From assembly GCF_008831285.2 (NCBI RefSeq), contig NC_045143.1:25131662-25195661 (forward strand): a stretch of DNA of 64,000 nt, read 5' to 3'. The notes beneath the pieces are model-generated. The model was not told the DNA's origin. It did not search any database and saw only the letters and a program-made list of their open reading frames with translations. This document shows positions 3,236-60,489 of this stretch, in pieces; the stretch's first letter is position 1, and the number at the start of each line of letters is the position of its first letter. Source of the DNA: Nymphaea colorata (lineage: Eukaryota > Streptophyta > Magnoliopsida > Nymphaeales > Nymphaeaceae). The position numbers were made by a program, and so were the translations under genes.

Positions 3236-3239
3236 AACT

Positions 3240-3400
3240 AGTTCAGCCAACTAGGGTTGGACTCGAACTCATCCATGCAAGTTCAACTTGTTAATGAACG
3301 AGTCTAATTTGAGTTTGATTTGCTCGAGCTCGACTCAACTTGTTTAATAAACGAGTCGAATTTGAGTTTGATTTACACGAGCTCAACTCATCGTATTGCA
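3240..3400. repeat. Degenerate CGAGTC/GAGCTC-type repeat fragment
   Basis: Two imperfect tandem units of about 53 bases each contain AACGAGTC and GAGCTCGACTC blocks. The same sequence style forms the subterminal regions of the hAT elements at 46329-50913 and 59934-60489. No terminal inverted repeats or target duplication are visible, so this is best read as a decayed fragment of that family. Confidence 0.5.
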
Positions 3401-3410
3401 TGTTTGTTAA

Positions 3411-6255
3411 TCTATATTAGCATGTCTATGACTTTTAACACTTTTGTATTTTTTTAATTTTTTAATGGTTTTGTATTGTTTTAATTTACCAGATTGTAGA
3501 GAATTTTTCCTATTATTTAAGGTCTGGATTTATGAGAAACCATATCCAATGTCCGAAACCTCACTGCTTGGATTCGGTACCCAAGCCTTTCATAAATATA
3601 TGAGACTAAAAGTGATTTGATGAGAAACATATATTAAGTTAGTTGTTTTTAAATTGTTTTAATTAAAAAAATAAACAGTTCTTATACCATCAAAGTTTGT
3701 ATAGTAGAAAAATATTTTTTTTTTACAAAAATTCTTAAACTAAAACATGATTTATAAGTAATATTATGTTTTCAAAAAGACAGATTCCAATCTCACAGGT
3801 TTGAATGCATATACTATATACTTAGTTCAACGTATGTCATTTATGTTAAATACCAAGACCCTTGTGCTCCTCTTGTCATAGAACCCAAGTCATATGGGTA
3901 AGGGTGCGGGTTCAGTACAAGAAGTACGAGGAGACGGGTACATAGATATTATATATAATGTCCATATATATATCCATAAAATTCTCGAAATTAAAGAAAA
4001 ATAAGAGGAAGATATATAATCTAGATGGATGGAAAAAAAAGAAAAATCAAAATTAAAACAAAAACAAAAAATTAAGATGGAAAAAGAAAACGAAACTAAC
4101 AGAATTAAAACAAAAATTAAATTTTAAAACCCAGCTGTATCCGCATACTTGTGAGTTACTGTACCTACATACTGACACAGATATACGTGTCACTTAGCCT
4201 AGAACCGTCACCAGTCATAGAACTATCACCATCGTTCAAATCAGAGCCAAATTTGACACTTTCAATTGGTCACGTAACAGTCTGCATCTTCAAACATGGA
4301 TCGTTTCCAAGACTCTAATTAAGGAAGAATCGGGGATCGATTCAAAATTCTTGATAAGGGAAAGGTGAATCCTGAAGATTGCCAGTAAAGTAAGGAGAAA
4401 ACTCCAAAATTTGCAGATCATTATGCTATTGCTATTCTGCGCACGATACAGTCCCTCTTCATTATCCCTATACCTTATTGATATCCTCATGTTTTTTTAT
4501 GTTCTTATCGGTTGTGACATTTATATACAAGCTCAGTTCACGGTCTTTACTGAATCGTTGATAGTTTAAATGCTGCAGGGACGATGAACAATTAAATGTA
4601 AAATTTACTTCAGAGATGTCCAATCTCAAAAACTAGTAAAGAAGCCATATGTAATAGAAGAAAATGACTGAACTACTGATTAATCTAAATTTACATGAAA
4701 TTACAGTAAAGGATTCGAATACGTTCATGGACTAATTTATGGACTGTCCTAGTCTTAGAACAATTTCACGATCTTGGCAATAAATAGCCCACTTGTTCGG
4801 GATGTGCAGGTATCAAATCTTATCGTCCTTGGAATCCTTCCACTCCTACAAGGCCAACCCTCTGCAGCACGAATATCTTGCAGCTCTAATTAAGTCAAAA
4901 CAGAGAACAATAAAAGAAAACAGTTACAGTATCTCTTTGAACAACAATTACTATCTCGATTCTTCTGACCAAATTTCAGGACATCCATGATAATAAAAAG
5001 CCAAGCAGCAAATTTTCCAGTAAATTTTTTCCTGTGTTGCTCATCGCATTCTTCTATGTGATTTCTCTTTTTCTGCCGAAGTGCCAGCAAAATCTACTGT
5101 ACTAAAGTGCAAGTAACGTTGGTGTGAAAGCATAGCATTTCAATTTGATCCCACCCAACCCAATTGAGAAGAACCAAACCTAACAGACACTTTTCTCTGG
5201 TGGGAATGTACTCCAAGTAATGGGTACCTTGCGGGGAACTCGACCCACCTAATCAGGTCTTGTATATACAGGAGGAAGGGCTGCCCCTAGGTGTATGCAG
5301 GGGGTGAATTTGTCACAAGAATGGATTCCTCATCAAATCCTTTTGGGAGTTGCCGACATGCTTGTGCAAATTCGGTCGACAGCTACAAGGAAAAGAGAAA
5401 GAAAGGAAATTGTGCCCAACCATTATGCTGCTAAATCTCTAACATCATTCCCAGCTTAACTAAAAGTCCAAAACTACATTGCAACTACATGTGCACCAAC
5501 TATTTTTTTTTTAACAGTTGCAAATTATGATCAGATTTGCAGTTGGCTATTATTGTGCAAAAATCTAGACTATAGAGTATTTTAACCATTGTCAAATATA
5601 TAGTGTGGGCATTATATGGTGAGGAAGTTCTTGGGTATAATACAAAAAAATTGTATATCTCAGGAATATCTCGGCAAATTTTTAAAAATTTAAAACTTTT
5701 AAAAAATCCTGAAAATTATAAAACAATAAAATAAATAAGAAATTAATAAAAATACGAAAAAAACACGTATAATACATGTTTTTTCATGTTTTTTAATATT
5801 TTGGCTTTTTTTCAAAAGGACGTGTCTTATTGTCGTTTTATATGGCTGACTTATTTTTCGCGTATTTAACGCCTCTTTTTCGATTAAGACACGATATTTG
5901 TGACAATGATTTATTTTCACTCTTCCTTGTGACAAATGCGTAACTTATATTGCTTGAAAATTGTATTTATGATGCTTTAATTAGTTACAATTGTTCAGTG
6001 TCATACTATGTTTTATTTTGCACTCAACATTTCCTTGCTGTGTAACCTTTTAAAAAATCATTTTTCAATTTTCTGGTTTTCTATATTTTTCTCTGAACGC
6101 TTTATCTTTTCTAAAATTGTGAAAAAGGAAAATACGTTTTTCACGGTATACTCTTCCATGGTAGGTATCGCTTGAAAAAAAACAGGTATTACAGAAATAA
6201 TCATCAAAGAAATAAAGAACTTTAACTAAGATTTCCTAAAGGATCGCGTTATTAC
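3411..6255. other. Non-coding A+T-rich DNA
   Basis: No gene was recognised. The stretch from 5600 to 5950 is very A+T-rich with many oligo-A and oligo-T runs and looks like old transposon debris, without identifiable ends. The exon 3' of the NSUN-like relic was looked for here and not found. Confidence 0.45.
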
Positions 6256-7630
6256 CAGCAGAAGGATTGTTTGAAAGAAACTGCTTGACCACATCTTCAT
6301 TTTGAGCAACAGTCAAGCTGTTCAAAGGCAGCAGTCGTCAACTACTATAGGATTAAATTCCCCACAGAAGGACTATAACATGAAATTTAAAAAACAAAAA
6401 TTGCATTGATGTCCCAACTCCCAAGTCCTAAATATAGATATTTACCTGCATGTGCTATACACAAGTGACCCTCCGACTTTAAGCAATCTAAAACCATTAG
6501 TAAGAAGCTGTAACTTCACAGAGTTTTAAGAAAAATCATTCATGTAGCATTTAGATCAAATAGATCTGCAGAAAGGTTGAACCAACCCAAAAAGCGAGAA
6601 AAAAGAGAATAAAATGATGCAATGAGAAAAAGTTTGACAACTTCAAGCAAAAAATAGGAACAACGTAACCAAAAAAGATAAACTAAAATTTTAAAGAGTG
6701 TTCCTTTTCCTGAAAAGAAAGTATCTAAAAATCAAGTCAAGTTTTGTAACGTCTAAAAATAATCAATTATTGGTAGAAATCTAAATACAGATGCACAAAA
6801 AATGGTGTGGTGCCCCACGCTTCCTGGTTTTAACCTTTTAGGAGAAGACATTGATCTACAGTAAAATGTCCTCATAACCCTGATTACTATCACGTTGCTC
6901 CTAGTGGCTTGATACGAAAAACAGTTTGAAGCACTTTCAGAAGAAGTACCTCCTAGCTGTTGTACTTCCTATTTTACCAGGTCATATTACAGATTATAGC
7001 CTTGCTTCCCAGAATCGTCCCCAAGAAAATAACTCTTCAATTTCAAAATTTGATTTCTTTTATAGTCATGGTCATACAAGTATAAACATCCATTACATTA
7101 TTTCTTTAAAGTTTAAACTTTAAACTAATCGAAGTTGACAATTACATTTTAAAAAAGAAAACTGCAAATAATTAAAATACAAAATGGATAGCACCGCAAG
7201 TTCATATTTCTCTTTTCTGTATTGACAGGCAAGGGATATGCAAACTCGTGAAGAGGATAGCATTGGATTTGCCAATCAGATCAGTAACAAATGGAAACCA
7301 ATATCTCCTCATAACTCAGGAACCCTAGTGCGGCTATTCTTAAGGCTCAGATGTCTTTTCTAAAGCAATTCAGCATCAGTAATTTGGAAACATAAATAAG
7401 GATCATAGGAATGTCAATTCAGCAGGTGAAAACCTGTAACTAAAATATGATCAATTTAAAATCTCTAGATAGATGCGGCTAGGGATTCAACATATTTTGC
7501 CTGGAGTTGAGTCAATGAACCAATGCTTTCTGAATCCAAGTCTTCTTTGAAGAGTGTCCCATCCCCAATCTTCAAACTTGAGGATGTGCTTAACAGACCC
7601 ATCATGTGTGCACTCAGCATCAACCAAGAC
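6256..7630 (-). pseudogene. NSUN/RsmB-type RNA cytosine-C5 methyltransferase, exon relics
   Basis: Three exon-like pieces lie in order on the minus strand. The first (about 7630-7486) follows a TTGTTAG acceptor and encodes VLVDAECTHDGS, the catalytic-cysteine region of one NSUN subfamily, followed by HILKFEDWGWDTL. It then shifts frame near 7545 before SIGSLTQLQ. The second (about 7433-7395) follows a TTACAG acceptor and reads GFHLL before a stop, where the family has a GF-LLKPGG segment. The third (6317-6256) follows ACAG, encodes LTVAQNEDVVKQFL, and ends at a GTAAT donor. Family members use AdoMet to make 5-methylcytosine in rRNA or tRNA. The AdoMet-binding region and N-terminus were not found. 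The frameshift and stop mark a decayed, partial copy. Confidence 0.68.
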
Positions 7631-17308: not shown

Positions 17309-18713
17309 CAAGAGATAAATGGCATGAAGGCTGAACTCGAAGGAATTGAAATGCGACAATCTTTCATGGATGTGTGATCCTCAGGTCAATATCTGCTCTT
17401 CTTTTTTATTTCCTAAGACATTGAGGATGATTACTTTATGTTCATTTTTTGAAAATTTAAAGGTTTCCCTTTTAGAGATTCAACAACATTGATGTGAAAT
17501 GAATCCCGATGCTTGTACGGTATTGAGGGTAAATGAAAGGCATATCATTTGCACAACACGAGCACTTTTTGCTTATGATTTAAATTGATGATTTATAAAC
17601 TATTTAAAAGTAAACACTTAACATCTCTTGTAATGTTTCTTGACTTCATGGGCATATGAGAAACTCTCAGCCCCTCTCTGTTTTTGAAAAATGTTGTCCT
17701 TTTTATTACCAAACCGCTAGTCCATTCATAGAATAGATGAAACCCCTCAAACATAGTCCACTCATGCTGAGTGTAATGAATTTTCCATCTTCCCCTTTCC
17801 ATGTTCCCATCACAATTTGTTTTATTGTGAAGGCTAGGCAGTATTTTTGTTGATTTCTCTTTTAAGGTTTGCTTAGTAAAGGGTTTGAAAGAGTCGTTAG
17901 CTTTTAACTTTTTTATCATTATTTTTTTATTTTTTTTTTACATTGTCAGTGTCTTCTGATTCATGCAGCTGATGTCGAAGTTTAAAGCTCAACTCATCAG
18001 TGTTCTTGTGGATGTACAGTGGTTATGGAAAAGCCGATTCATGTTGCACGAGAGTTTGATCTTGTACTTCAAAATCAAGTTTTTATTTGAGTTCCCAACA
18101 AAGTTGTGGCATCCAATTTGATTTGACTGAGTTTACATAAATTTTTGGTGAAACAGAAACTAACTAATGCTGGTTGCAAAAGTTCGCACAAAGACAAGCA
18201 AATCTTGTCATTGTTTGTTTGTGTTTTTTGTTTGTTATTTTGTCATAATTGGTAGGAAGCCAAGTGTTATGCATGTACATTGCATGAGAGCTCGAAACCA
18301 CACCCTCTACAGCGGAAATCTCCTACAATTGCTAAGATTGCTACAGAATTCTATTCCAAAACTATGGATGTTTGGGTGACTTTAACATTTGATGATTGAT
18401 TTGTCTTGCTTGCCAAGGCTTATACCTTGGGTTTAGTTTATTTTATTATAGGGAATCTGATTTGACCCAGTGGTTGCAAAGTTGATGTCGAAAACAGAGA
18501 ATTTTTGAGAAATTTACATATATGTGCAGAAATTAGATTGCTTGCGGAAACCAAACAAGTTTCAATTGGTCTATCTTTTACCTGAATTGAGTTAGGATTT
18601 TGGGTGTGATATGACAACTTAAGTCAAAGTCGTGTAGGCTTCTTTCACGGTCTTTCAAATTTGCTTATATTTAGGTCCAGTTAATTTAGAGAACAAAGAT
18701 TTCAAGTAAGGAT
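17309..18713. repeat. 1.4-kb dispersed direct repeat, copy B
   Basis: This is the second copy of the segment at 1-1409, same orientation, 17.3 kb downstream. The left edge in this copy is CAAGAGATAAATGGCATG, after A-rich sequence. The right edge is the shared AAGTAAGGAT. Both copies share the same run of short broken frames, so neither appears to code for protein. Confidence 0.9.
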
Positions 18714-26530: not shown

Positions 26531-26865
26531 TCCGGCATCCAATTTTTATCATTACATCTATACAAATAAATCAATTTTCAAAAATTATTTTACAAATTTA
26601 TTTTTCATAAACTCGGTTTTCAAATTGCTAAATCACTTCGATGACTTTTAAAATGAGCGGTCGAACGCAAACGGTAAATCCAACGCAGTGAGTTTATGTG
26701 GCGTGAATTTCATGAGGAACTTTTGAAGGAGGTTTTTTGTTTCATTAATGACAAAGGGTAATTTAGTTATTTCGAGTGGGAGTTAACGGACAATTCATTA
26801 GATCAGTGATTTTTAGATCACCAAAAAATTTTGGGCGGCTTTTTGTAATTCCTTTAAAAAAATTA

Positions 26866-28203
26866 ATGCGATCGCCGACCTGCATCCCTTTCCCGGGAAC
26901 TCGAGTCCTACACGCACCCCTTTGCCGCAGCGGAACTACGGACGCAGATCAGAGGAGGGAAGTGGCGCCCACGCCGCCCCTTCCGCCTGCTTCCCGTTTT
27001 TTTCTGAGCGGCCGAAGGTGTCGGAATCATCCCTTTCCATGGGTTGCCTCGTGGCCGTTCACGTCGGTTAAGACTCAACGGCGCATCATGCTGTCTGGCA
27101 CACCCTTCCAGAACAACTTTGTGGAGCTCTTTAACACATTGTACTTGATTAGACCAACATTTGCAGAAGGAATTTTCAAGAGCTTTGGGGACCATGAAAA
27201 TGGCTTAGAAGCTGATCCAGTTGAAAAAGAAATGAGTTTGCAGGATAAAAATGAGACGGTGTTCAGACGTACTTTTGCAACATTTTCAGGTGGCATAGAA
27301 CCACGGGGAAATAGCTCAAGATTAAAAGAGCTCAGATTAATAATTGATCCTTTCGTCCATGTCCATGAAGGTAATCTCCACAAGCTTCCTGGGTTGAGAG
27401 ATTATTTTGTCTTTCTGTATCCATCTACTCTTCAGAGGTGCATCCTTGAGAAGCTAACCGAGAAAAGTAACTTCGAGAATAACTATAGGGTGTCGTGCAT
27501 CTCCGTCCATCCATCCATTCTCTTGGGAATAGAGACCCTGGATGCAAAGGATAGAGACGTTATCAAAGAGCACCAAGCAGACCTGTCAAATGCCCGAATT
27601 ACTGATGGAGTTAAAGTAAGATTTGTGGTTGAGCTTGTTAGGCTGTGTGCAGCTTTGAATGAAAAAGTCTTGGTGTTCAGCCAATTTGTCCTCCCACTCT
27701 CCAATATCAAACATTTTCTTATTTCATCCTTCAATTGGACCACTGGCCAGGAAGTTTTGCAGCTTGATGGAGGAATTGCACAAAAATGTCGTCAGCCAAT
27801 AATTCATACTTTTAACAACTCACAGAAAGTAAAGGTACTACTTGTTTCCACAGAAGTGTGTGCCGAAGGGATGGATCTGACAGGGGCTTCAAGAGTGGTT
27901 TTGCTTGATCTTGCTTGGAATCCATCAGTACGAAGGCAAGCCATAGGTCGAGCTTATAGGATCGGCCAGAAGAAAGTTGTTTATGCATACAATCTGATTG
28001 CGTCTTCTACATTGGAGGAAAAGAAGCATAAAATACAAGATACAAAGGACAAGTTCTCACAGTTGGTGTTTTCTACAGTTGCAAAGAACGATACGTTGGT
28101 AGACACTTTAAAGGAATGCGATGATGGAGTCCTCTGTGAACTGATTAAGCGGGACATATCTGCTAGCTTTTTTGAGAAAGTTCTTGAACCGAAGTGCGGT
28201 TAG
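26866..28203 (+). CDS. CLASSY-type SNF2 chromatin remodeller, C-terminal half (chimeric, truncated)
   Basis: A continuous 445-codon frame runs from the first in-frame ATG at 26866. Roughly the first 65 residues match nothing recognisable and are G+C-rich. From about 27067 the protein is a CLASSY-family SNF2 helicase: RRIMLSGTPFQNNFVELFNT near residue 77, STEVCAEGMDLTGASRVV near residue 328, and RRQAIGRAYRIGQKKVVYAY (motif VI) near residue 360. Family members recruit RNA polymerase IV for RNA-directed DNA methylation in the nucleus. The Walker A and DE-H ATPase motifs lie upstream of motif III and are missing, so it cannot hydrolyse ATP. The intact frame suggests a recent truncation or fusion. 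It could be transcribed, but a functional remodeller is unlikely. Confidence 0.8.
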   Translation: MRSPTCIPFPGTRVLHAPLCRSGTTDADQRREVAPTPPLPPASRFFLSGRRCRNHPFPWVASWPFTSVKTQRRIMLSGTPFQNNFVELFNTLYLIRPTFAEGIFKSFGDHENGLEADPVEKEMSLQDKNETVFRRTFATFSGGIEPRGNSSRLKELRLIIDPFVHVHEGNLHKLPGLRDYFVFLYPSTLQRCILEKLTEKSNFENNYRVSCISVHPSILLGIETLDAKDRDVIKEHQADLSNARITDGVKVRFVVELVRLCAALNEKVLVFSQFVLPLSNIKHFLISSFNWTTGQEVLQLDGGIAQKCRQPIIHTFNNSQKVKVLLVSTEVCAEGMDLTGASRVVLLDLAWNPSVRRQAIGRAYRIGQKKVVYAYNLIASSTLEEKKHKIQDTKDKFSQLVFSTVAKNDTLVDTLKECDDGVLCELIKRDISASFFEKVLEPKCG

Positions 28204-29578: not shown

Positions 29579-30095
29579 TAGGGGTGAACACGAGCGAGTC
29601 GAGCTCGAGCTCGGCTTGGCTACTAAATCCTCGAACTCGGCTCGAGCTCGTCTCGAGCTTGTCCAAAGCAACACCAGCTCGACTCAGTAGAATTTGTCGA
29701 GCTCGAGCTCGATTAAGCTTGACAAACTGGACTCAACTAAATCCTGCTTTCCCTTGAAATCATGGAGATCTACACCGGTCCACCGCCACCCCTCTCGTCT
29801 TCACCACTGCCAACACCAACCATTGGCATTTTCACATGCTTCTCCCCTACCCAGAATCCACCTTAAGCCCTGCAATGGTTAAGGGGCTCTCGCTCAAGCT
29901 AGGGTTTCTAAAACCCTCACAACCCACATTTGGGCAAATACCCTCGCCCAATCCAAAGAGTGAGGGAAACCCTCGCTTGGGCAAAACCCTTGCCCAAGAG
30001 AGGGTTTCAGAAAGCCTCCTTTGGCAAAACGAGAGAGAGAGTGATATCAGAGAGGGAGAGAGAGAAGGGGAGAGTAGAGGGAGAGGCTTGGACAA

Positions 30096-30141
<46 letters not shown>

Positions 30142-30683
30142 AAGAGGGGAAGAGAGAAGGGGAGAGTAGAGGGATAAGAGCAGCCGAGAGCAAGAGGGTG
30201 TATACCTTAATGTTGATGTTGAAGAATCGGTGGCTGGTGGGGGTTCATGAGAATGAAGGAGAAAACCAGTCAAGAGAGAGGTGAGAAGCCCAGTGAAGAG
30301 AGAGGTGAGAAGCCAGCAAGTAAAAAAAATGCGAAGAAGAAGAAGAAGAAAGAGCGGAGAGAGAACGCAGGGGATGAAGCATGGAAGAAGAAGAAGAAAG
30401 AGGGGAGAGAGAATGCACGGGATGAAATGAAACGTAAAACGAAAAAATCAAAATAAGTATTGCTTTTGATTGAGCCGAGTCGAGTTGGCTCGACTAAAAA
30501 AACGAGCCGAAAAATGAGTTTGAGCTCGGCTCGATAAAAAAATGAGTGGAAAAAATGAGCTCGAGCTCGGCTCGATAAAAAAAATGAGTGGAAAAAATGA
30601 GCTCGAGCTCGGCTCGTTTATTGAAATAGTCGGCTCGAACTCGATTTCGAGTCGAGTTTTAACGAGCTTGTTGTTCACCCTTA
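29579..30683. mobile_element. hAT-like element with GAGCTCGAG subterminal repeats
   Basis: The ends are TAGGGGTGAACACGAGC on the left and, inverted, TAAGGGTGAACAACAAGC on the right, both followed inward by dense GAGCTCGAGCTCGGCTCG repeats. The middle carries GA-rich microsatellite sequence (about 30040-30140) and purine-rich sequence with no believable protein. No clean 8-base target duplication was found (TGTCCAAT versus ATTGCACT). The termini closely resemble the two hAT elements that do have duplications. Confidence 0.7.
30099..30138. repeat. (GA)n microsatellite
   Basis: A GA run of about 20 units inside the CGAGCT-rich element. It creates long but meaningless Arg/Glu open frames. Confidence 0.9.
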
Positions 30684-44664: not shown

Positions 44665-45008
44665 TGGTTGGGATTTCCCCGTCTCGGTAGTCCTGCGTCG
44701 ATACGGGTCTATATCCGTTTCGGACCCTTAAGTATAAATACTTGTGTCTCGTGATGGTGTTAGACACATTCAGTTTTTACCGTCTGGGTAATCGGTTCCC
44801 TTAGCCATACGTGAATTGCCTGTCCCCATCACTGGGCTGCTATGGCTGAGGAGAAAAACCCATTGCCGCCGCCGCCAATGCTGCTGGGAAACGACTCTAC
44901 GGGGACTGTAGCCGTTCTTCCCACAGCCGCCGACTGAATGTCGGCGGTCGCCTCTACAGGTTCTTCTTTCGTTTGTGCGCTATCTAGATTTCTAGCAAAG
45001 CTCCAACA
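44665..45008 (+). repeat. 5' LTR of the nested copia element
   Basis: It begins TGGTTGGGATTTCC and ends GCAAAGCTCCAACA. It contains TTAAGTATAAATACTTG, a TATA-box-like promoter element. The first bases differ slightly from the 3' LTR (TGGTTGGG versus TGTTGGG). Confidence 0.8.
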
Positions 45009-46320
45009 ATGGGTTATGGGCCCACACCACGCTTCTGCTGCGCAGTTTCCCTTTGCATACTGTCTTCACTCAAAGGGAATAGGGCAGAAACTAGGGGCGC
45101 CGGATTCCGGCCGTCAGGCAGGCATTGGCCGGCCATTAGGCGACGGCCGGACCTCTGCGTCCTGGCGTGACTCGCCGGCAGCCACCCACGCCGTTGGGTG
45201 GCCTGCCGGTGGTCTTTTCGGCACCGTTTCAGTCGACAGAACAACAGGGAAAGGGGAAGGCGACGGGTGTCTGCAAGAAGGGAGATCACCCGTTCCGTTG
45301 AACATCGATTGCAGGAAGGGAGGCCACCGGCGGGTTCGCCGTCGCCGGACGGCCCTGACGGCACCCGTCGGTGTCCACCCAATCACCCGTCGTCCTCCCG
45401 CTGCCACCGGTCGTGCCCAAATCTGAAAAATGGAGGGCACAGGGACAGACGATGGCTGAGGAGGGCGATGGCCGGTCAGAGGCCCGCCGGCGCCAACCCA
45501 AGGCTTCCCTCAGCCCGTCGGAGAAGAACCCGCCGTTCCCTGCGTTCGGCGTTTTGCAGAGGAGCGGCGGTTTCTCCCCGCCTGAAACCGCTCGCTCAGT
45601 CGAGCGGGAGACGGTCGAGCGGGGAACGGTTGGACCCGGGTCGGGTCGTGTTGACCCGACCCAGATCCATAATGTTAAAAAAAAAAAACCCGTTCCCGCT
45701 CGTCTTCCGCCCGCCCGCTTTTTTCATTTCATTTTGGGTCGGGTCGGGTCCTGTCGATCCCGATCCGTATCTATTCGGTTTGTTTTTAAAAAAGGACCGA
45801 TTCGGTCCGTTTTAGAACCGATCCGATCCGTTTCAAGACCGATTCAGACATTTTGGGACCGATTCGGATCTTTTTTGAACCGGTTCAGTTGAATTTCAGA
45901 CCGGTTCATTCAGTTTTAGAACCGATTCGGGTCTTTTCAAACCGATTCATAGTTGTTTGAGACTGGTTCTTTCCCTTTTCGGACCGATTCATCTAGTTTT
46001 CCACCGGTTCGGTCCATTTAGGACTGATACGGGACCGATTCTAAGCTATAGGAAGCTGATATATGTGTTTTTATGCCCATTTAAGGTGATTAATGGATTG
46101 GTTTGATCATTTTAGATCGATACGGGACCGATTCATTATGTTTTATGGAGCTTTAATGAACAATTTAGATAGCATTAAGTTGATTATGCAGAAATGATTC
46201 GTGTGTTTCATTTTAAATGCGTTATTATGACATATTATATTCTTGTATTCTGTTTTGTTTAGGATTATGCTAAAGTTAATTTTTATTGCAATGATTATAA
46301 AGTTGTACGATAACGCTAAT
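45009..46320 (+). other. Copia leader: G+C-rich block and GACCGATTC array
   Basis: Between the LTR and the hAT insertion lies a strongly G+C-rich segment (about 45090-45660) with several overlapping open frames on both strands. I regard these as composition artefacts. No convincing tRNA primer site was identified directly after the LTR. Confidence 0.5.
45755..46055. repeat. Degenerate GACCGATTCGG tandem array
   Basis: About ten diverged copies of a unit of roughly 30 bases, containing GACCGATTCGG or GAACCGATTC separated by T-rich spacers, follow a GGGTCGGGTCG block. It lies within the copia leader. Confidence 0.8.
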
Positions 46321-46328
46321 GTAAGGAA

Positions 46329-46530
46329 TAGGGGTGCACAACGAGTCGAGTTACTCGAACTCGACTCGTTTAACTCGACTCGTTAGTGTAAACGAGCTAC
46401 TTCATTAGTTAAACGAGTCGAGCTCGAGTTCACGAGTCAACTCGTTTAACTAAGCGAGTCGAGCTCGAGTTCACTTTGCGAACTCGTTAAAGCTCGACTC
46501 GGCTCGATTAACATACCGGTTTTAAAAAAA
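46329..46530. repeat. Left subterminal CGAGTC/GAGCTC repeats of the Pack-hAT
   Basis: Clustered AACGAGTC, GAGTCGAGCTCGAG and TCGAACTCGACTCG motifs occur in both orientations. hAT transposases typically bind short subterminal repeats, so these are candidate binding sites by analogy. Confidence 0.8.
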
Positions 46531-47708
46531 CCGGTTCACTAGTCACGACTCACTTTGCGAACGGGAAAGGGTTTTTTTTCGTTCTAGGGTTCGTTAACTT
46601 TGTTTTCGTTCTCCCTCTCTCTCTCTGACTCCGACTCTCCCTCTCTGGCCTCTCGGCTCCCACCTCCTTCTCCGCCTGTGCTCCCACCCTGCTTCACTGT
46701 GCTTCTTCTCCGCCCGCCTGTGCTCTGCGCTCCTGCTGCCCTGCGAGGCTGCGTCAGTGTGCTCTCCCCGCCTCTCCGCTTCTCCAGTGAGTCAGTGATA
46801 TCCAACTCTCAAGGAAGAGGTTCTGCCAGCAGTGTAGCAAGTTCGATGGCTCTTTTTTCCTTCTCTGTTTGCCTTAATCTCTACTTTTTGTTGGTTCCGT
46901 TGACGCATCAAAAGTCTCTTTCCTTCTCTTTGTTGTATCGGATGTCTATGGTGAATTCTGACAGTAGCCTATTATTTTCATGGTTTGTGCTTGATTTAAA
47001 GGGTCTTACTTAAGATTCCAAGGGTATCATGCATCATTTAAATTGAGTATATGTGCGATATGATGCTTGGCTTGCTCGTATTTCTGCCGCTTATTTCATG
47101 AACTATGGTCGGTCGTTTGTTAATCTGGGAATTATGGATTTATGCTGAGGTTATCGTCTGGTTTTTCTGGGTACTTCCCTCGACTCTGTAACTTTTACCG
47201 AACTGTGTTAAAGAGTTTTCTTTGTTTTTATTGCTTTATCTTGTTTGTGTTAGGTGGAAGTACTGATGAACATTGAAGTCTCCTTTTCCCCTATAGTTGT
47301 CGTTGTCATCATTAGCAGCAGGACCATTATGTCTATTATGGATAATGTCGTTCTCCTGTTTACAAATGGCACTCTAGTTTCTTATGATGAAGTTGGTTAA
47401 TTTGCTGCTAGCTTGATAACTGATGCATTTTTATTGTTTAACGTGTTGTGACGGAAAGTTCTCATAATGGATCTAGGCAGCAGAAGAGAAATAGGGAAGA
47501 AAAGGAAAAACTGTGGAGAAGATAATGTTTTTCTCTGCCTTCACCTAATCCCAAAATATGCTCTGTTTTACTCTTTCTTTGGTCTTGGTTATTTGTCTGT
47601 CATGCTACTTATATGTGCTAGCAAAGGTATATTAACCAAATAGGGTACAAGGAAAATTAAGTGGACCATTTTCTAGTTGATAAGTTACATGACCAGGTTC
47701 TCTGATGC

Positions 47709-48066
47709 TTAGTCATCTGATGCTTTTGGAGAGCTCTCGGGTGTTTCTAGACTTGCTGTTTTCTTCCGTGTGATCCATCACAGCAGTTCGAAATGCATCC
47801 ACGGTAGCACTTTCCTTGAACTTCAAAGCAAATGTAGAGAGGGTGTTCCTTCCTTCAACAGAACTGTTAAAGCACGAAAAGGTAATGCCTTTCTTCACCA
47901 GTTTCAACTGGGACCTCCTGCATCACAAGCAGAGCATTTCCACTGGATTTGTTAACCTCTGTAGATGAAGAACCAAGACCCAGAGGAGATGAGCTTCCAT
48001 TGTTTGAGCTTCCAGTACCAAACAACGGCAAGGATGTGCTGCTGCCCTTTAAGCTAAAGGTAGAAC
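47709..48066 (-). pseudogene. NUP50: NUP50-like nucleoporin C-terminus, captured and rearranged
   Basis: On the minus strand, after a TTGCAG acceptor (48067), the frame encodes Ser/Gly-rich sequence with LPLFGTGSS, then NKSSGNALLVMQEVPVETGE as in plant NUP50. It then jumps directly to KKGITFSCFNSSVEG and LSTFALKFKESATVDAFRTA of the Ran-binding domain, and ends LETPESSPKASDD plus stop (TAA at 47711-47709) after one frameshift. NUP50 is a nuclear-basket nucleoporin that binds Ran and importin alpha. The N-terminal half of the RanBP1-like fold is missing, so the piece cannot form the domain. It lies wholly inside the hAT element. Confidence 0.75.
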
Positions 48067-48082
48067 CTGCAACTAGTTAGAG

Positions 48083-48201
48083 AAAATGATCAATAGAGGG
48101 ATTAATCTGCAACTAGTTAGAGAAAATGACTTCTAGTGGTAGATATTGTATTTTGCAATTTGGTAGATCATAAAATCAATGGTTTTGTTTAGTTCGATAA
48201 T
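48083..48201. repeat. 119-bp inverted repeat, left arm
   Basis: The reverse complement of 49179-49297 with only about two mismatches seen by eye. It begins AAAATGATCAATAGAGGG and ends TTTAGTTCGATAAT. It starts beside the 5' edge of the NUP50 fragment and carries a partial tandem duplication of CTGCAACTAGTTAGAGAAAA. Confidence 0.9.
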
Positions 48202-49178
48202 CTGAGGGGCATTTATCAGCATGATCTGAGGGGCATTTATTTTCTTGTTGGTGACCATGCTCACCCAAGATCTGAGGACATATATAAGATGCTTAATTGC
48301 CTGATCAGCGATATGAAATTTGTTGGTTATATTCCTTGTGACATTGATACATACGATGAGGAAGAAAACCTGTAATGAGGAGATGAATCATTGGAGGGCA
48401 GGTCTATCTTGCCTTTTTCTTGAGAACAATTTCTCTTGCTGTTGTGCACATCTACCAATCATAGGTTGAGGCATCTCTAGTGGCAGGATTTCTTAGGAAC
48501 TCATCCTCTTAACAAGAACTTGGTGGATCATGCATGGAATTTCTTTCCTAATAGTAACGGTCAACAAATTATTTCCTAATTTGAATTTAACTTTCAAATC
48601 TGCCATCTCATTTATTCCTGCTTTTGTATCTAAAAAAGCAAAGTCACTCCCATAAAAATAACAGAGAATTGCCGTGAAGCTTTCATATGGTGTCTAGTTT
48701 TCACTTGCTAATGTCAATCCTTACATATAATAATATAGTTTCACCTGGTAATGGCATGGTACCCAATTTCACGTGTGGCTTTGTGTGGCTTTGGTCTGTG
48801 CATTATATGCGTCCTTCTTGTAATCTGTCTCGTGTATGCAGTGCTGGTTGCTTTATGTTAATGCTTGATTTTCTGAAAAATACTAAAGCTAGATGTCACA
48901 TGTGATCTGATTTGCATGAGCCCATGAGTAACATGATGAAATGTCGCTAGGTGAATTTCACTTTAGATCTTCAAATTCAGTAATCATATCTGTGTATTGT
49001 TTCTTGTTCTTCATCGGTTATAGTCCATGAATTATATGTTATAACCAAAGAATCTATAAACTTTCGGATAACATTAGTGGTTGACTATATGATTCTCTAA
49101 TTTACATTATGCCATGAATCTGGCATAATTGCTCAAGGCATCTTAGTTTGCTCCTTTTCTAAACCTTTTTCCTATTCT
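48202..49178. other. Spacer between inverted-repeat arms
   Basis: About 980 bases of A+T-rich sequence with a short tandem of TCTGAGGGGCATTTAT near its left edge. No protein family was recognised. If transcribed through both arms it would form a long-stem hairpin. Confidence 0.5.
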
Positions 49179-49297
49179 ATTATCGAACTAAACAAAACCA
49201 TTGATTTCATGATCTACCAAATTGCAAAGTACAATATCTACCACTAGAAGTCATTTTCTCTAACTAGTTGCAGATTAATCCCTCTATTGATCATTTT
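49179..49297. repeat. 119-bp inverted repeat, right arm
   Basis: Partner of 48083-48201, beginning ATTATCGAACTAAACAAAAC. No target duplications were seen just outside the arms. Confidence 0.9.
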
Positions 49298-50094
49298 TGA
49301 AGTAAAGTTATGTGAGGGGCATTTATTTCTGTATAAATTAACGCTTTTTGGTTGAAGTAAAGTTAGAAGCATTTTAACTGTGTAAATTGAAACCTTTTTG
49401 CTTCTTCTCGTTGCAGCTCAAACTGCTCAACTTCAAAAACTCTCACCAGAAAACGCTGCGTCCGCCCCTCCCTTTGGTGAGCAGTCTAGCGGTGACAGTA
49501 ACATCTCCGGTGGCAGCAGCTCTCTCCCTGGCTGTGACAGCTCTTTCCCTATGGCAGCAGCATTCTCTTCACATTGCAGCTTAAGCTACTCAATATCAGA
49601 TTATCTCACCAGAGATTCAAAAAATGCTGACATCCACCCCAGCCTTCAGTGAATTAGTTTTTTCTTGCTAGAATATTATCTTGAGAACAATCACATTTAG
49701 CTTAACATTTTTTTGTCTATGAAATTTGCTTTGTTTTCTTTGAACCCTTCACAATTTGCATTCAGTTTTGCTCCTTTTTTTTCTGATTGCTTAGTGAATG
49801 GTGGAAGTTCATAGCATTTGAACGCATCTTGTTTTATGCAAGTAGTCACATATGTAAATGTCGTAACACGGTAACAGGTTGCCAAAATTCTTTACCCGTC
49901 CAACTGGTTTGAATTTAACCTTCCCTATTACTGTTTTCTGAACTTCATTCTTTTGATTGGTCAGGCTGCAATGATCAGCCATGCAAAATACAAATGAGGT
50001 ATGAAATCAAGGTCGATAAATGTTGGATTGACTGCATGTCTTCGATAAACCCCATATTGGTTTATATTTCTGATAAGAATGTGATTCATGTAGG

Positions 50095-50451
50095 AATGAT
50101 GCTGTTGAGGATGGTATCTTCAATGACCTGTTTGTTTTTCAGCATGATCTACTAAGAGACTTGGCCATGTATTCTGCCAAGTCTAATTATTGCAAATCAT
50201 CACTGTTCTTTTGTGACGTTGATGAGGCCAATCGCCATTCAAGACTGAATATTGTAGACATGTTTCCAGAGCTCACAGAACTCGAGATTGACTATTGCAG
50301 TAATTTGGTATGTCTACCTCCTGGATTATGTGAGATTATCAAACTAAAGAGCCTCAGATTTTTTGATGTGTTTGACTGTGCAACCATCAGTAGCTTCCCT
50401 GATGAATTTGGTGACCTGACAGGTTTGAGAAAGATCAAAATGAGGTGGTGT
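50095..50451 (+). pseudogene. RPW8-class NLR (ADR1/NRG1-like) fragment, captured
   Basis: The frame reads LFVFQHDLLRDLAMYSAKS, the end of the NB-ARC region typical of RNL helpers. After about 30 residues come leucine-rich repeats: MFPELTELEIDYCSNLVCLP and PDEFGDLTGLRKIKMRWC. In complete RNL proteins many more residues separate these parts, so an internal piece is missing. RNLs are helper immune receptors acting below sensor NLRs. RPW8, P-loop and most of NB-ARC are absent. Tandem CAGTCATTGCTTGTATGT units follow. It lies inside the hAT element, just before the right subterminal repeats. Confidence 0.72.
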
Positions 50452-50689
50452 TTGCAGTCATTGCTTGTATGTTTGCAGTCATTGCTTGTATGTATAATGT
50501 ATCACGAACTTAAAATTTTCCACTGTGCCCCTCAGATTGTTCTTGTTGTGATCTCGAACTTGATATAGTCATTGCTTGTATGTATAATGTATTCCAAAAA
50601 TTGTTGACAATTTGAACATAATTAATGCCAGGTGGTTTTATATATCTTTTTGATGAAACTGTTAGCAGTAATACAATTGGTTTGATTCA

Positions 50690-50913
50690 GTAAACGAGTT
50701 AAACGAGTCGAGCTCGACTATTGGTTTAATAATCAAACGTTAAACGAGTTAAACGAGCCGAGCTCGAGCTCGAGTATGTATAGTCGAGTCGAGCTCGAGC
50801 TCGTGTTAGGAACTCTACTCGAGTTCGAGTTCGAGTTCGAGCTCGAGCATTTCGAGCCGAGTCGAGTTCGAGCTGGGCGAGCTCGAGCTCGACTCGGCTC
50901 GTGTGCAGCCCTA
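50690..50913. repeat. Right subterminal CGAGTC/GAGCTC repeats of the Pack-hAT
   Basis: Dense AACGAGTTAAACGAGTCGAG, GAGCTCGAGCTCG and TTCGAGTTCGAG motifs lead into the terminal GGCTCGTGTGCAGCCCTA. Confidence 0.8.
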
Positions 50914-50921
50914 GTAAGGAA

Positions 50922-51369
50922 CCTATGATTAGTTAAATCATGTTATACCTCACCAAAGTGACTACGCATGATTTAAATGCACATTAGTGTTTCATGTTGT
51001 ATTTATTCTCATTTGAAGTAACATAATTACCCAAAGGTAATGTGTTATGTTCAAGAGAATAAGTAGAGTAAAATAGGAAAATAGATCCTTACATAGTTCT
51101 GTCATTTTACACCCAAAGGTGTTATGCTTAACTATAGTTTGGATTTACATTTCCTAGTTTTACTAGATAAAGTTAAGACGGAATACATGTGCGTATTAGG
51201 TATATTACCAAAGTAGTATCCTAATGACCCCGGGTATTTGTCTTGGAAATAGTAGACATAAAGAGCATTTATTTGGTTTACTGTTCTATATGGTTTGTCT
51301 CATATACTGTTTTATATGGTTTGTCTCATATAATGCATGTCAACTTATAGATGTCTTTTGTCGTCTGCA
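50922..51369 (+). other. Rest of the copia leader before gag
   Basis: A+T-rich sequence resuming after the hAT target duplication. A tandem of CTGTT(C/T)TATATGGTTTGTCTCATATA occurs near 51280-51330. CTGCAG just before the gag start could be a splice acceptor. Confidence 0.45.
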
Positions 51370-52783
51370 GTGCCTGGATCTATTTATTTTAATGGTTCAA
51401 ATTCTATCCCTTTACTTGATTCAAATTATGCTGAATGGAAAGAAAATGTTGTGTTTACATTGGGGTATATGGATCTAGATATGGCTTTGAGGCGACCTGA
51501 GCCACCACCTCTTACACCAGAAAGTACACATAATGAAATAGTGTATTTTGACAAGTGGAAGCGTTCTAACCGACTAAGCTTGCTGCTTTTGCAATCAAGG
51601 GTCGCTAAGAACATACGTGGTGCTATCCCACCTTATAGATCGGTGAGAGAGTTCTTGGATGCAGTTGAGGCTCAGCTTGTCAGTTCTCATAAAGCCAGAG
51701 CTAGTACCCTAATGTCAAAGTTAATATATATGAAATATCAAGGAGGGGGTAACATTCGCCAGCATATGTTAGAAATGAGGAACATTGCTTCTCAATTGAA
51801 TGACATGAAGTTGACTATTTCTGAATCATTCTTGGTATTCTTTACTTTGACCTCTTTACCAGCTGAATACACTCCTTTTTAAGATCAGTTACAACACACA
51901 TAATACTGAATGGACATTCAATGAATTGATGTCTAAGTATGTTGAAGAGAAGGAAAGAATGAAGGGTGAGAAGTTGCAAAGTGCACATATGGTTTCTCAT
52001 TCTGGGGCTGGTAAAGTTAGCATAAAGAAAAGTTTAATGAAAAGGAGTGCCAAGAAGAAGTCAACAGGACAAACTGCTTCTCAAACTGCGCAGACTAACT
52101 TAGCCCCTATAAAGTGTTTCTTTTGCAAGAAAAAGGGGCGTAAGAAGTCAGACTGCATCAAGTACAAGAATTGGTTAGAGAAGAAAGGTAACATGTCATT
52201 TGTTTCACTTGAAAGTAATATGTTACATGTTCCTATTAATAGCTGGTGGATTGACTCTGGTGCTACTGTGCATATTGCCAATAATTTACAGGACTTTCTG
52301 AGCAAAAGAGAACCAACACTACATGAGAGGAGCATTTTCTCAGGAAACAAAATGCGCTCACATGTGAAAGCTGTAGGAGAATGCTAGATTAGGCTTGATA
52401 CTGGCTTTGTTTTGGATCTTCATGATGTTTTCTTTGTTCCATCATATAGTAGAAACTTAATTTCTGTATCAAGACTGGACAAATTTGATTTTTATTTAAA
52501 GTTTGAAAATTCAAAAATGTTGATTTATAAAGATCTTGTTGAAATTGGTTCTGCTATATTTTCTGATGGTTTATACAAGTTGAATGTGAAGATCCAATCT
52601 CCTGAATCGTTGGTTTCTAGTCATACTATAATTGGCAATAAGCGTAGTACCATAAAGGATGATTCATATATGCTATGGCACCGCCGTTTGGGTCATATCT
52701 CTGAAAAGAGAATAAGGAGACTCATAAATGAAGGGATCTTACGATCTCTTGATTTTACAGATAACGACATATGTGTAGATTAG
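51370..52783 (+). pseudogene. Copia Gag and protease
   Basis: Gag begins around 51370 with GSIYFNGSNSIPLLDSNYAE and continues through the usual capsid region to a TAA at 51880, where a frameshift occurs. The frame from 51926 carries the zinc knuckle (CFFCKKKGRKKSDCIKYKNW, with arginine in place of the usual glycine and serine in place of the usual histidine-side residue). The protease motif SWWIDSGATVHIANN follows, then a TAG at 52385, then the GAG-pre-integrase LWHRRLGHISEKRIRRL and a TAG at 52781. Confidence 0.88.
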
Positions 52784-53656
52784 ATAAAGGCAAAGCAAAC
52801 TAACATATATAAAGAAGGTGTCGAGCGATGTACTGAAAAGTTAGGAATTGTTCACACAGATGTTTGTGGACTTTTTCCTCCTTGTTACACAGGCGAAAAG
52901 TATTTTGTCACCTTTATAGATAACTATTCTCGGTATTCGTATCTCTACTTAATCTTTGAAAAATCCGATGTGTGTCAAGTTTTCAAAGACTATACGAAAG
53001 AAGTAGAGAAACAAACCGGTGATGTTATCAAGATAGTCAGATCAGATAGAGGTGGTGAATATTATGGTAGGTTCACTGAGATAGGACAAAGGGAGGGACC
53101 ATTAGCGCGATTTCTAAAGGAAGAAGGCATTGTGCCTCAGTACACTATGTCAGGCAGCGCCTACCAAAATGGTGTTGCTGAAAGAAGAAATCGTACGCTT
53201 AAAGAAATTGTTCGAGCTATGTTAAATTACTCTACTCTCCCTCTAACCTTGTGGGGTGAAGCTCTCAGGACAGCAGTGCATATACAGAATAGGGTTCCTA
53301 CTAAGGTTGTTCCCACAACTCCTTACGAGTTATGGACATGTAGAAAACCTTCTCTTTCTTATATGCACATATGGGGATGTCCTGCTGAAGCTAAATTGTA
53401 TAACCCCTACATAAAAGCCTTTGATCCTAGAACAACCAGTGGTTTCTTTATTGGTTATCCAGAAAGATCGAAAGGCTATAGGTTTTATTATCCATCTCAT
53501 ACACCACATATTGTGGAAACAGATAAGGCTAAGTTCCTGGAAGATGGCTCATTTGGGTTAGATGCATTACAAAACCTCAATTTTGAGGAAATACAGGATA
53601 CTGAAAGTAGACCTGATAAAGAGAATATAAATGTGTATGATTATGTTGTCTCTTAG
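52784..53656 (+). pseudogene. Copia integrase
   Basis: In the same frame as protease but after a stop: a core with [45 protein letters not shown] and [18 protein letters not shown], which hold the conserved acidic residues. The C-terminal [17 protein letters not shown] follows. It ends at a TAG (53654). The enzyme would join cDNA to host DNA; here it is interrupted by stops on both sides. Confidence 0.88.
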
Positions 53657-53662
53657 GATGAC

Positions 53663-55439
53663 ATGAATGCAAATCATACAGGCAATGCATCAGATCTAGA
53701 TGAATTAAGTGTAGATCATACTGATGAATACGAACAGGATGTGGACATACAAATTGAAAATGATCAATTACATGTTCGTAGATCTACAAGGGTCAGGAGA
53801 TCTGTCATATCATCAAACTATGTGGTATACTTACAAGAGCCTAGTGATTTCATAGATGTTGATGATGATCCTTCCAAATTCATTGAAGCCGTTGAAAGCA
53901 AACAATATAGGCACTGGATTAATGCCATGAAAGAAGAGCTTGACTCTATGGCTAAAAACCAGACATGGAGCCTTGTGTCGTTGCCTGAAGGAGTAAGACC
54001 CGTAGGGTGTAAATGGGTCTATAAGACCAAGAGGGACTCTAAAGGCAACATAGAGAGATACAAGACAAGATTGGTTGCTAAAGGATTCACACAAATGGAG
54101 GGCATTGACTATAATGAGACATATTCACCTGTCTCTGCTAAATAGTCAATGAGGATTGTCCTTGCACTTGTAGCTCATTTTGACTTAGAGCTACATCAGA
54201 TGGATGTGAAAACGGCTTTCTTGAATGGTGATTTGGATGAAGAGGTATATATGGATCAACCTCAAAGGGTTTTCTGAGAGTGGTAAAGATCATTTGGTTT
54301 GCAAGCTTAATAAAGCGATTTATAGACTTAAACATGCCTCACGTCAATGGTACATTAAGTTTTCCGAAGTCATTACGACTTTTGGGTTTATAGAAAACAT
54401 CATTGATCGATGTGTGTATCTTAAGACATGTGGGAGTAAGTTCATAATTTTGACTTTATATGTGGATGACATTTTACTTGCTTCAAATGATCTTCAATTA
54501 CTAACAGAAACCAAACTTTTTCTCGCATCTCATTTTGAGATGAAGGACATGGGTGAGGCTTCATTTGTTCTTGGCATTGAGATTCGTTGAGACAGATCTA
54601 AATGTGTTTTAAGTTTCTCCCAATCAACATACATCAATAAAGTTCTTAAAAGATATGGGATGGAGAATTGTTCTCATATTTCGGCACTCATAGCTAAAGG
54701 GGACAAATTGAGCCTAAATGATTGTCCAAATGACGAATTTGAAAAGGCACAAATGATCAACATTCCATATGCATCTACGGTTGGCAGCTTGCAGTATGCG
54801 CAGTTTTTTACTAGGCCTAACATTTCCTTTGCTGTTGGCATGCTTGGTAGATTTCAGTCTAATCCAGGCATGGCACATTGGAAGGACATAAAGAGAGTCA
54901 TGCGGTACTTGCAAGGGACAAAAGATTACATGTTGACATATCGCAAGGTGGACCATTTAGAAGTAATTGGCTATTCTGATGCCGATCTTGAAGGATGTAC
55001 CGATAGTAGAAAGTCTACTACTGGTTTTGTTTTCCTTCTATCAGGAGGTGCCATCTCATGGGGGAGCAAAAAGCATACTGTGACTGCTGCTCACACCATG
55101 GAAGCAGAATTCATTGTATTATATGAGACTACATCACAGGCAATTTGGATAAAGAACTTCATTTCACAGCTCAAGATAGTGGAATCCGTTGATAGACCAC
55201 TTAAGGTTCACTGTGATAATGAAGCTGCAGTGTCTTTTTCCAACAACAACAAAAGTACTACTTCTTGTAAGCATATGAAACTTAAGTATTTTGTTGTTAA
55301 GGAAAGGACAGAGAATCAACTAGTGTGTATTCAACACATTGGAACTACAAATATGGTTGCAGATCCTCTTACTAAAGCGCTAGCATCTGGTATGTTCTTT
55401 GAACATGTTAAGAGGATGGGTTTGTGTAGTTCAATGTAA
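53663..55439 (+). pseudogene. Copia reverse transcriptase / RNase H
   Basis: Motifs in order: KWVYKTKRDSKGNIERYK, then a TAG at 54143; MDVKTAFLNGDLDEEVYM, then a frameshift near 54260; the active-site LYVDDILLASND (near 54460); a TGA at 54588; GYSDADLEGCTDSRKSTTGF and VHCDNEAAVSF of RNase H; and the copia ending CIQHIGTTNMVADPLTKAL, with the stop at 55437-55439. The polypurine tract and 3' LTR follow within 200 bases. Confidence 0.9.
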
Positions 55440-55639
55440 ACACACTATTATGCAAATATTTATGAATGTGATCACATACAGTTTGTTGATTCTCATTAAG
55501 TTTGTTGTCTATTTATTTTGTATTCTCATTTGTTTGTTGAGAAGTTTTGTAAGACAACAAGGTGAGACCTTGGAATGGATTTTAAGGCTAATCCATTCAT
55601 TTTGTTTACCCTTGATATCGACTTGAACTAGTGGAAGAT

Positions 55640-55706
55640 TGTTGGGATTTCTCCATCTGGATAGTCCTGCGTCGATACGGTCTAGATTTCTAGCAAAGCT
55701 CCAACA
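55640..55706 (+). repeat. 3' LTR of the nested copia element, internally deleted
   Basis: The first 41 bases and last 26 bases match the two ends of the 344-base 5' LTR. The middle, including the TATA-like element, is absent. Confidence 0.8.
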
Positions 55707-59933: not shown

Positions 59934-60489
59934 TAGGGCTGCACACGAGCCGAGTCGAGCTCGAGCTTGCCCAGCTCGAGCTCGACTCGACTCAACGAGC
60001 TCGAGCTCAAACTCGACTCGAACTCGAGTCGAGCTACCTAACACAAGCTTGAGCTCGACTCGATTAAATAAAGTCGAGCTCGAGCTCGACTCGATTAGCT
60101 CGTCTAAATAAAATATGATCCTTCTTTTTAAAATATCTAGTAAATTTCATGACGTGGGATGAAATTTGTGAATCACTCAACCGAGTCAACCCTGCCAACA
60201 GTTTAGAGCTGCAAATAGACACCATTTGGTATTAGACTGTTCTCATTATTAACTATTATAGAATCATAAGCTGATGACTGAACAACTGAACAAAATGGAA
60301 ATAGGACATAATGTATATAAACGAGTCGAGTCGAGTATAAACGAGTCGAGAACTCGACTCGTTTACTCATTCGAGTTTCATTGTAAGCTCGAACTCGACT
60401 CGTTTATAAACGAGTCGAGCTCGAGCCGAGTTTAACCGGGCGAGTTCGAGTCGAGCCCGAGCTGGCTCGACTCGTTGTGCAGCCCCCTA
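59934..60489. mobile_element. Small non-autonomous hAT element
   Basis: Perfect 8-base target duplications TTACTGAG (59926-59933 and 60490-60497). Termini are TAGGGCTGCACACGAG and, inverted, TAGGGGGCTGCACAACGAG. The interior is mainly CGAGTCGAGCTCGAG-type subterminal repeats around a short A+T-rich core. It belongs to the same family as the 46329-50913 element by its ends. Confidence 0.93.

Follow-up and report, generated by a model that had tools for sequence, protein, structure and literature searches.

Four foreign segments in a transposase-less hAT element of Nymphaea colorata, probably gathered stepwise by transposase-bearing relatives

The window analysed here, a 64,000-nucleotide stretch of the Nymphaea colorata genome (C6:25131662-25195661 in a 408-Mb assembly of 783 contigs), contains at 46329-50913 a Pack-hAT, a 4585-bp hAT-type element with inverted ends and with GTAAGGAA on either side, which has no detectable transposase, holds fragments of host genes and has moved as a unit. 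We consider it likely that this element arose as a non-autonomous form within a large hAT family, with cargo gathered stepwise in transposase-bearing hATs and a last event that replaced the transposase itself. Judged by alignment, the cargo comprises four foreign segments, three from host genes (NUP50, a PPR gene and an RNL gene) and one that we call segment X. The parts of the element and of the retrotransposon around it are listed below; numbers with the prefix L denote genomic loci fetched for comparison.

44666..55706, plus strand: host copia retrotransposon with the hAT element in its leader; 5' long terminal repeat (LTR) at ~44666-45009, shortened 3' LTR at ~55640-55706
46321..46328, no strand: left copy of the target-site duplication, GTAAGGAA; the octamer is single in other copia copies
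46329..46808, plus strand: native left end, with terminal inverted repeat (TIR) TAGGGGTGCACA, CGAGTCGAG-type subterminal repeats to ~46506 and then a pyrimidine-rich stretch resembling a 5' untranslated region (5'-UTR)
46809..47704, plus strand: module M, no donor found; common to L021, L024, L026 and C7:19571108-19573377
47705..48069, minus strand: C-terminal fragment of NUP50, donor C1:31518755-31519327
48083..48201, minus strand: fold-back arm, a 119-bp inverted second copy of the captured PPR tail; partner at 49179-49297, 98%
48202..48240, no strand: junction filler with two copies of the motif TCTGAGGGGCATTTAT; a third, related copy lies at 49307-49326
48241..49311, plus strand: end of the coding region (E+ motif) and 3' flank of a PPR gene, donor C3:9606904-9607959, 99.3%
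49319..50030, plus strand: segment X, donor C6:11092093-11092835, 94%
50047..50457, plus strand: RNL (ADR1/NRG1-type) fragment, donor C3:21519820-21520827; probable intron end, then parts of exons for the NB-LRR linker and LRR
50461..50913, plus strand: native right end, with short tandem repeats, CGAGCTCGAG-type subterminal repeats and TIR (inverted TAGGGCTGCACA); terminus the same as in the element at 59934-60489
50914..50921, no strand: right copy of the target-site duplication, GTAAGGAA

An earlier, sequence-only reading of this DNA had proposed a complete, cleanly delimited 4.6-kb element without transposase, nested in a copia leader, and all three parts of that description hold. First, the octamer GTAAGGAA occurs twice in the whole window, and both occurrences abut the element termini exactly (2.5 would be expected anywhere by chance). 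The left terminus reads TAGGGGTGCACAACGAG and the right, read inward, TAGGGCTGCACACGAG; both ends combine short TIRs of the form TAGGG(G/C)TGCACA with CGAGTCGAG/CGAGCTCGAG subterminal repeats, an arrangement typical of plant hAT ends, and the 8-bp target-site duplication matches at 8/8 positions. Pack-MULEs, of another superfamily, have long TIRs and 9-bp duplications; here the duplication is 8 bp, the outer TIRs are short, and the inner inverted repeat is accounted for by the PPR donor. Second, the window copy shows no similarity to a 691-residue transposase frame of the relative L021 (tblastn, 1e-5), and a six-frame search of it revealed no transposase domains. Third, gag and RVT_2 domains lie within 51337-54145, downstream of the element, and the leader is uninterrupted in other copies of this copia, whose LTRs in the window were placed from two short matches (48 and 26 bases).

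These other copies supply empty sites. Each flank has 40 scored genomic matches. Of the 39 left-flank copies listed outside this locus, 24 have the right flank directly adjoining, the two overlapping by exactly 8 bases, and the remaining 15 have no partner among the right-flank matches listed; in the window the same flanks stand 4585 bp apart. At all eight of the empty sites that were read from these 24, the octamer is single and reads GTAAGGAG, one base off GTAAGGAA. Because both octamers in the window read GTAAGGAA, this copia presumably differed by that base, carrying A there, before the hAT element inserted.

Other elements with the same termini, on which the sequence-only reading depended, do exist. 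When 46329-46520 was used as query, the best 40 of 760 first-look candidates were scored (identity 87-100%), and 20 loci were fetched, chosen by similarity. The right end and an 8/8 duplication were found in 15 of these, and L035 has a 7/8 duplication with one mismatch; elements with paired ends are between 549 bp and 12.9 kb long, and left-end similarity reaches 46685 or beyond in all fetched loci but L029, where it stops at 46555. Similarity to the L021 transposase frame (1e-5), partial in some cases, is present in 12 of the 21 sequences compared (the window copy and the 20 fetched loci) and absent from nine, including the window copy. The frame itself contains hAT-like_RNase-H (1.5e-29) and Dimer_Tnp_hAT (5.4e-28) domains, and the 12.9-kb L021 element that bears it is bounded on both sides by TCTATCAT, so that members with these ends include ones with a hAT transposase.

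Two groups of relatives carry the argument. In five of the 20 fetched loci (L021, L022, L025, L027 and L035), transposase sequence occurs together with both X and RNL cargo, although in L025 the transposase sequence spans residues 1-226 only. The second group is a single sibling, L024 (C13:17743058), a 4561-bp element with NUP50, PPR, X and RNL blocks as in the window copy; it has a different duplication, CCACGAAC, and no flank homology, and the composite has thus moved as a unit after capture.

The cargo itself can be followed to donors on contigs C1 (NUP50), C3 (PPR and RNL) and C6 (X). Alignment to donors upheld the NUP50 (minus strand) and RNL (plus strand) fragments of the sequence-only reading, each with internal deletions, but its count of two host gene fragments was too low, as segment X had been missed, and so had the PPR piece and the fold-back arm that goes with it. 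The NUP50 piece consists of two blocks matching the donor at 98% and 100%, between which a net ~208 bp of donor sequence has been lost at a 7-base microhomology, TTTCTTC. A single frame of the donor contains Pfam NUP50 (8.3e-14) and Ran_BP1 (2.6e-17) domains; direct Pfam and PDB searches with the window piece gave no match to RanBD, and its identity comes from the donor and the L021 sequence. The RNL piece opens with a probable GT-AG intron end at 50047-50094 (splice sites inferred from sequence), matches its donor in three blocks at 93-99% with three deletions, and has a translation that matches solved RNL proteins (PDB, best E=5.1e-20).

The PPR piece differs from its donor by 7 substitutions in 1070 aligned bases and extends ~0.9 kb beyond the stop codon. 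An open PPR frame in the donor carries an E motif (1.6e-23) and a weaker E+ motif, the match to which falls under the Pfam cut-off in the window copy; the donor locus has one arm only. Among the matches listed, the PPR block occurs only in the window copy and L024, which differ there at 9 of 972 aligned bases, with ~100 bp missing in L024. Segment X has further homologues on C13, C11 and C2. A six-frame search of its captured part gave no Pfam domain, and the 2.3-kb stretch around the donor has four Pfam matches, two of copia type, all of which are under cut-off and outside the captured part. For module M, a DNA search with 46780-47704 returned family members and one weak match (75% over 100 bases), and no donor outside the family was recognised. 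A 26-residue piece at 46794-46871 that resembles an SBP box (Pfam E=0.0034, under the family cut-off) was considered as a further capture and set aside: in relatives, what aligns with it is ordinary sequence of the family or module M, and the same DNA search disclosed no SBP donor.

None of this cargo runs past the termini. Every donor match stops within the element, 1 kb taken from either flank has no counterpart in 31 fetched family and donor loci, and the rest of the window shares nothing with the four donor stretches but one 24-base repeat.

Comparison of junctions among copies suggests an order of assembly. Of 36 matches listed, those at 10 places run across the junction between X and RNL (50030/50047). 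L026 has a longer RNL piece, without X, made up of donor positions 315-708, 1035-1310 and 1483-1590; the window piece has 574-708, ~17 bases from 1035 onward, then 1188-1334 and 1464-1581, a block pattern also present in L024, L025, L027 and L035. As the window copy retains the 708|1035 junction and the ~17 bases that follow, this deletion is common to it and L026, with further deletions on the window side. The longest NUP50 piece, 628 continuous bp to donor position 1965, is that of L021; L025 and L027 retain donor 1767-1965, and L035 and L022 shorter parts from 1767. These patterns support a single capture each for NUP50 and RNL, with losses occurring separately afterwards. The NUP50 deletion followed capture, because L021 retains sequence absent from the window copy, and relative to the L026 version some RNL deletions likewise postdate capture. 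The PPR block of the window copy and L024 occupies the place of the transposase in L021, L022, L027 and L035. From which copies share which junctions, we infer that RNL was captured before X and NUP50 before the PPR piece.

We propose that cargo accumulated step by step within transposase-bearing hATs, each capture being a copy of an ectopic locus made while a break within an element was repaired, probably by template switching at microhomology. The last repair would have cost the element its transposase, the gap being filled by the PPR 3' end and a fold-back copy of it, and the transposase-less product would then have been moved in trans by the transposase of relatives, one copy entering the copia leader. 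What is observed is that the segments have different donors, that chimaeric junctions are common to copies at different loci with different duplications, that deletions followed, and that the same composite was inserted twice, with different duplications and unrelated flanks. Of all the blocks, the PPR block fits template switching best. At its borders, NUP50 sequence ending in CCTG is joined to a stretch reading CTGCAACTAG, like the inverted arm; that arm is partly repeated at a 40-bp offset, after which the block resumes in the forward direction, and the motif GAGGGGCATTTAT occurs three times at the block borders. Microhomology and templated repeats are seen at junctions, and the gap-filling and fork-stalling models outlined for Pack-TIRs in the available part of PMC8277862 work in a similar way.

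Several points weigh against this proposal. The empty sites are other copia copies that read GTAAGGAG rather than GTAAGGAA, and no empty allele of the window locus is among them. The family sample consists of 20 similarity-chosen loci out of 760 candidates, 40 of which were scored, and four of the 20 (L028, L031, L033 and L038) lack paired ends and a duplication. Module M and segment X have no recognised coding origin. L026 has M without X or NUP50, so the order may have been obscured by exchange between copies. Template switching is judged from the shape of junctions, and movement in trans is presumed. Finally, fusion of neighbouring insertions, as modelled in the available part of PMC8903248, could have supplied X, M and other blocks.

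This last possibility is the most substantial alternative as a general explanation: closely spaced hAT insertions would fuse and the DNA between them be re-mobilised, with no template-switch repair. Such fusion has been put forward for Pack-TYPE elements of several superfamilies, hAT included (PMC8903248, in the part available), and the present family has many copies, with members that differ by modules. Simple fusion, however, is not expected to yield the fold-back PPR copy or the short repeated motifs at its borders, and nothing within 46809-50460 matched element ends at E<=1e-3; we regard it as possible but doubtful. The window copy viewed alone would suggest something simpler, a transposase-less hAT that took up NUP50 and RNL together, and a single capture of this kind was implied by the sequence-only reading. 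It is very unlikely and did not survive comparison with relatives: the donors lie on C1, C3 and C6, the X|RNL junction recurs at the places counted above, and NUP50, X and RNL pieces with the same chimaeric junctions are carried by transposase-bearing elements.

A more local alternative treats the 1.2-kb inverted-repeat block at 48083-49297 as a transposon nested on its own, such as a Pack-MULE, that brought in the PPR piece. The block is indeed flanked by 119-bp arms that are 98% complementary, but the single arm of the PPR donor lies downstream of the gene and the donor matches 48241-49311 continuously, no target duplication was seen by eye at the block borders, and the matches listed place the block in two copies only; nesting of this sort is most improbable. 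An origin of the gene pieces from reverse-transcribed mRNA, for which we found no supporting point, is scarcely credible given the probable intron end that opens the RNL piece, the retention in L026 of donor 315-708 across that probable intron, and the length of PPR sequence beyond the stop codon.

Most likely the element encodes no useful protein. One might suppose instead that it is not inert, the family giving rise to a shortened RNL protein, or to small RNAs with the donor PPR and RNL genes as targets. The RNL piece does keep one open frame through its deletions in all four copies compared, and the PPR piece with its 119-bp arm would form a long hairpin if transcribed, which a predicted RNA fold of 48060-49320, made without a shuffled control, also gives. 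Over 345 aligned bases, ratios of nonsynonymous to synonymous differences (pN/pS) are 0.39-1.03 among the four copies and 0.22-0.43 between donor and copies, with counts (5-15 changes per pair and 11-17 changes, respectively) that are too small to separate selection from chance and, in the latter case, include change on the donor side; L027 (deletion) and L021, L022 and L026 (parts of segments missing) were left out. We consider activity of this kind very improbable.

Other members of the family show further variety. The window holds a second one:

59934..60489, minus strand: short non-autonomous member of the same hAT family, 556 bp, with an 8/8 duplication, TTACTGAG

Its two ends match those of 46329-50913 over 175 bp (87%) and 141 bp (72%), and L029 is a similar 549-bp copy elsewhere in the genome. 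L021 contains a nested copia at 2483-7442 with two identical 255-bp end repeats, presumably LTRs. In L025, L027 and L035 a different piece comes next to the 5'-UTR-like stretch of the left end, at ~450-950; a frame in it resembles glutaredoxin (in L025, Pfam E=0.03, under cut-off), and this is perhaps another captured exon. On the minus strand at 6440-7024 of L034, a 3769-bp element, there is a different PPR fragment (Pfam PPR_2 6.3e-07, just under cut-off). Elsewhere in the window, 29579-30683 was considered as a hAT like those of this family, having similar, hAT-like inverted ends (TAGGGGTGAACA and TAAGGGTGAACA) and subterminal repeats of the CGAGCTCGGCTCG type, but a matching duplication of 8 bp was not seen. 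A direct repeat (1-1409 and 17309-18713, 95% over 1.4 kb) possibly represents the LTRs of another retroelement, and an open frame at 26776-28203 with a Helicase_C domain and, near the cut-off, an SNF2-related match looks like a chromatin-remodeller gene or fragment.

Capture of genic sequence by hATs is already in print for grapevine and maize, and the element described here adds an unusually well resolved member. Pack-hATs have been reported for maize, and Pack-TYPE elements surveyed in maize and rice (Gisby and Catoni 2022, PMC8903248). As far as the available part of that survey goes, the present element resembles those in its hAT TIRs, 8-nt duplication, host coding DNA, lack of transposase and module-combining relatives, and differs in that, for a single element of another plant, donors, stepwise deletions and transposase-bearing carriers of the same cargo could all be followed, with cargo that appears to predate transposase loss. 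The Hatvine-6 hATs of grapevine have similar transposase and TIRs and genic sequence inside (Benjak et al. 2008, PMC2528002); like the carriers here, they retain transposase and TIRs while the remainder is variable and often matches genic introns and exons, but the available sections of that paper describe no transposase-less derivative with a common cargo junction. The same sections name the Pack-MULEs of plants, which are likewise carriers of gene fragments. Pack-TIRs include hATs with captured sequence, breakpoint microhomology and proposed template switching, but, in the part of PMC8277862 available, nearly all are single-copy (four multicopy, 1.4%), whereas the window family is multicopy with several fillers. 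A literature search on hATs and transposable elements in Nymphaea colorata returned nothing that, judged by title, deals with such elements.

What this family would add is a resolved path from a loaded, transposase-bearing hAT to a transposase-less one. A 2026 review allows, in its available part, that a mechanism yet to be discovered may exist for the gathering of pieces of unlinked genes by DNA transposons (PMC13317346). With donors, less eroded transposase-bearing carriers and a transposase-less product all in one genome, the order of capture and deletion becomes directly testable.

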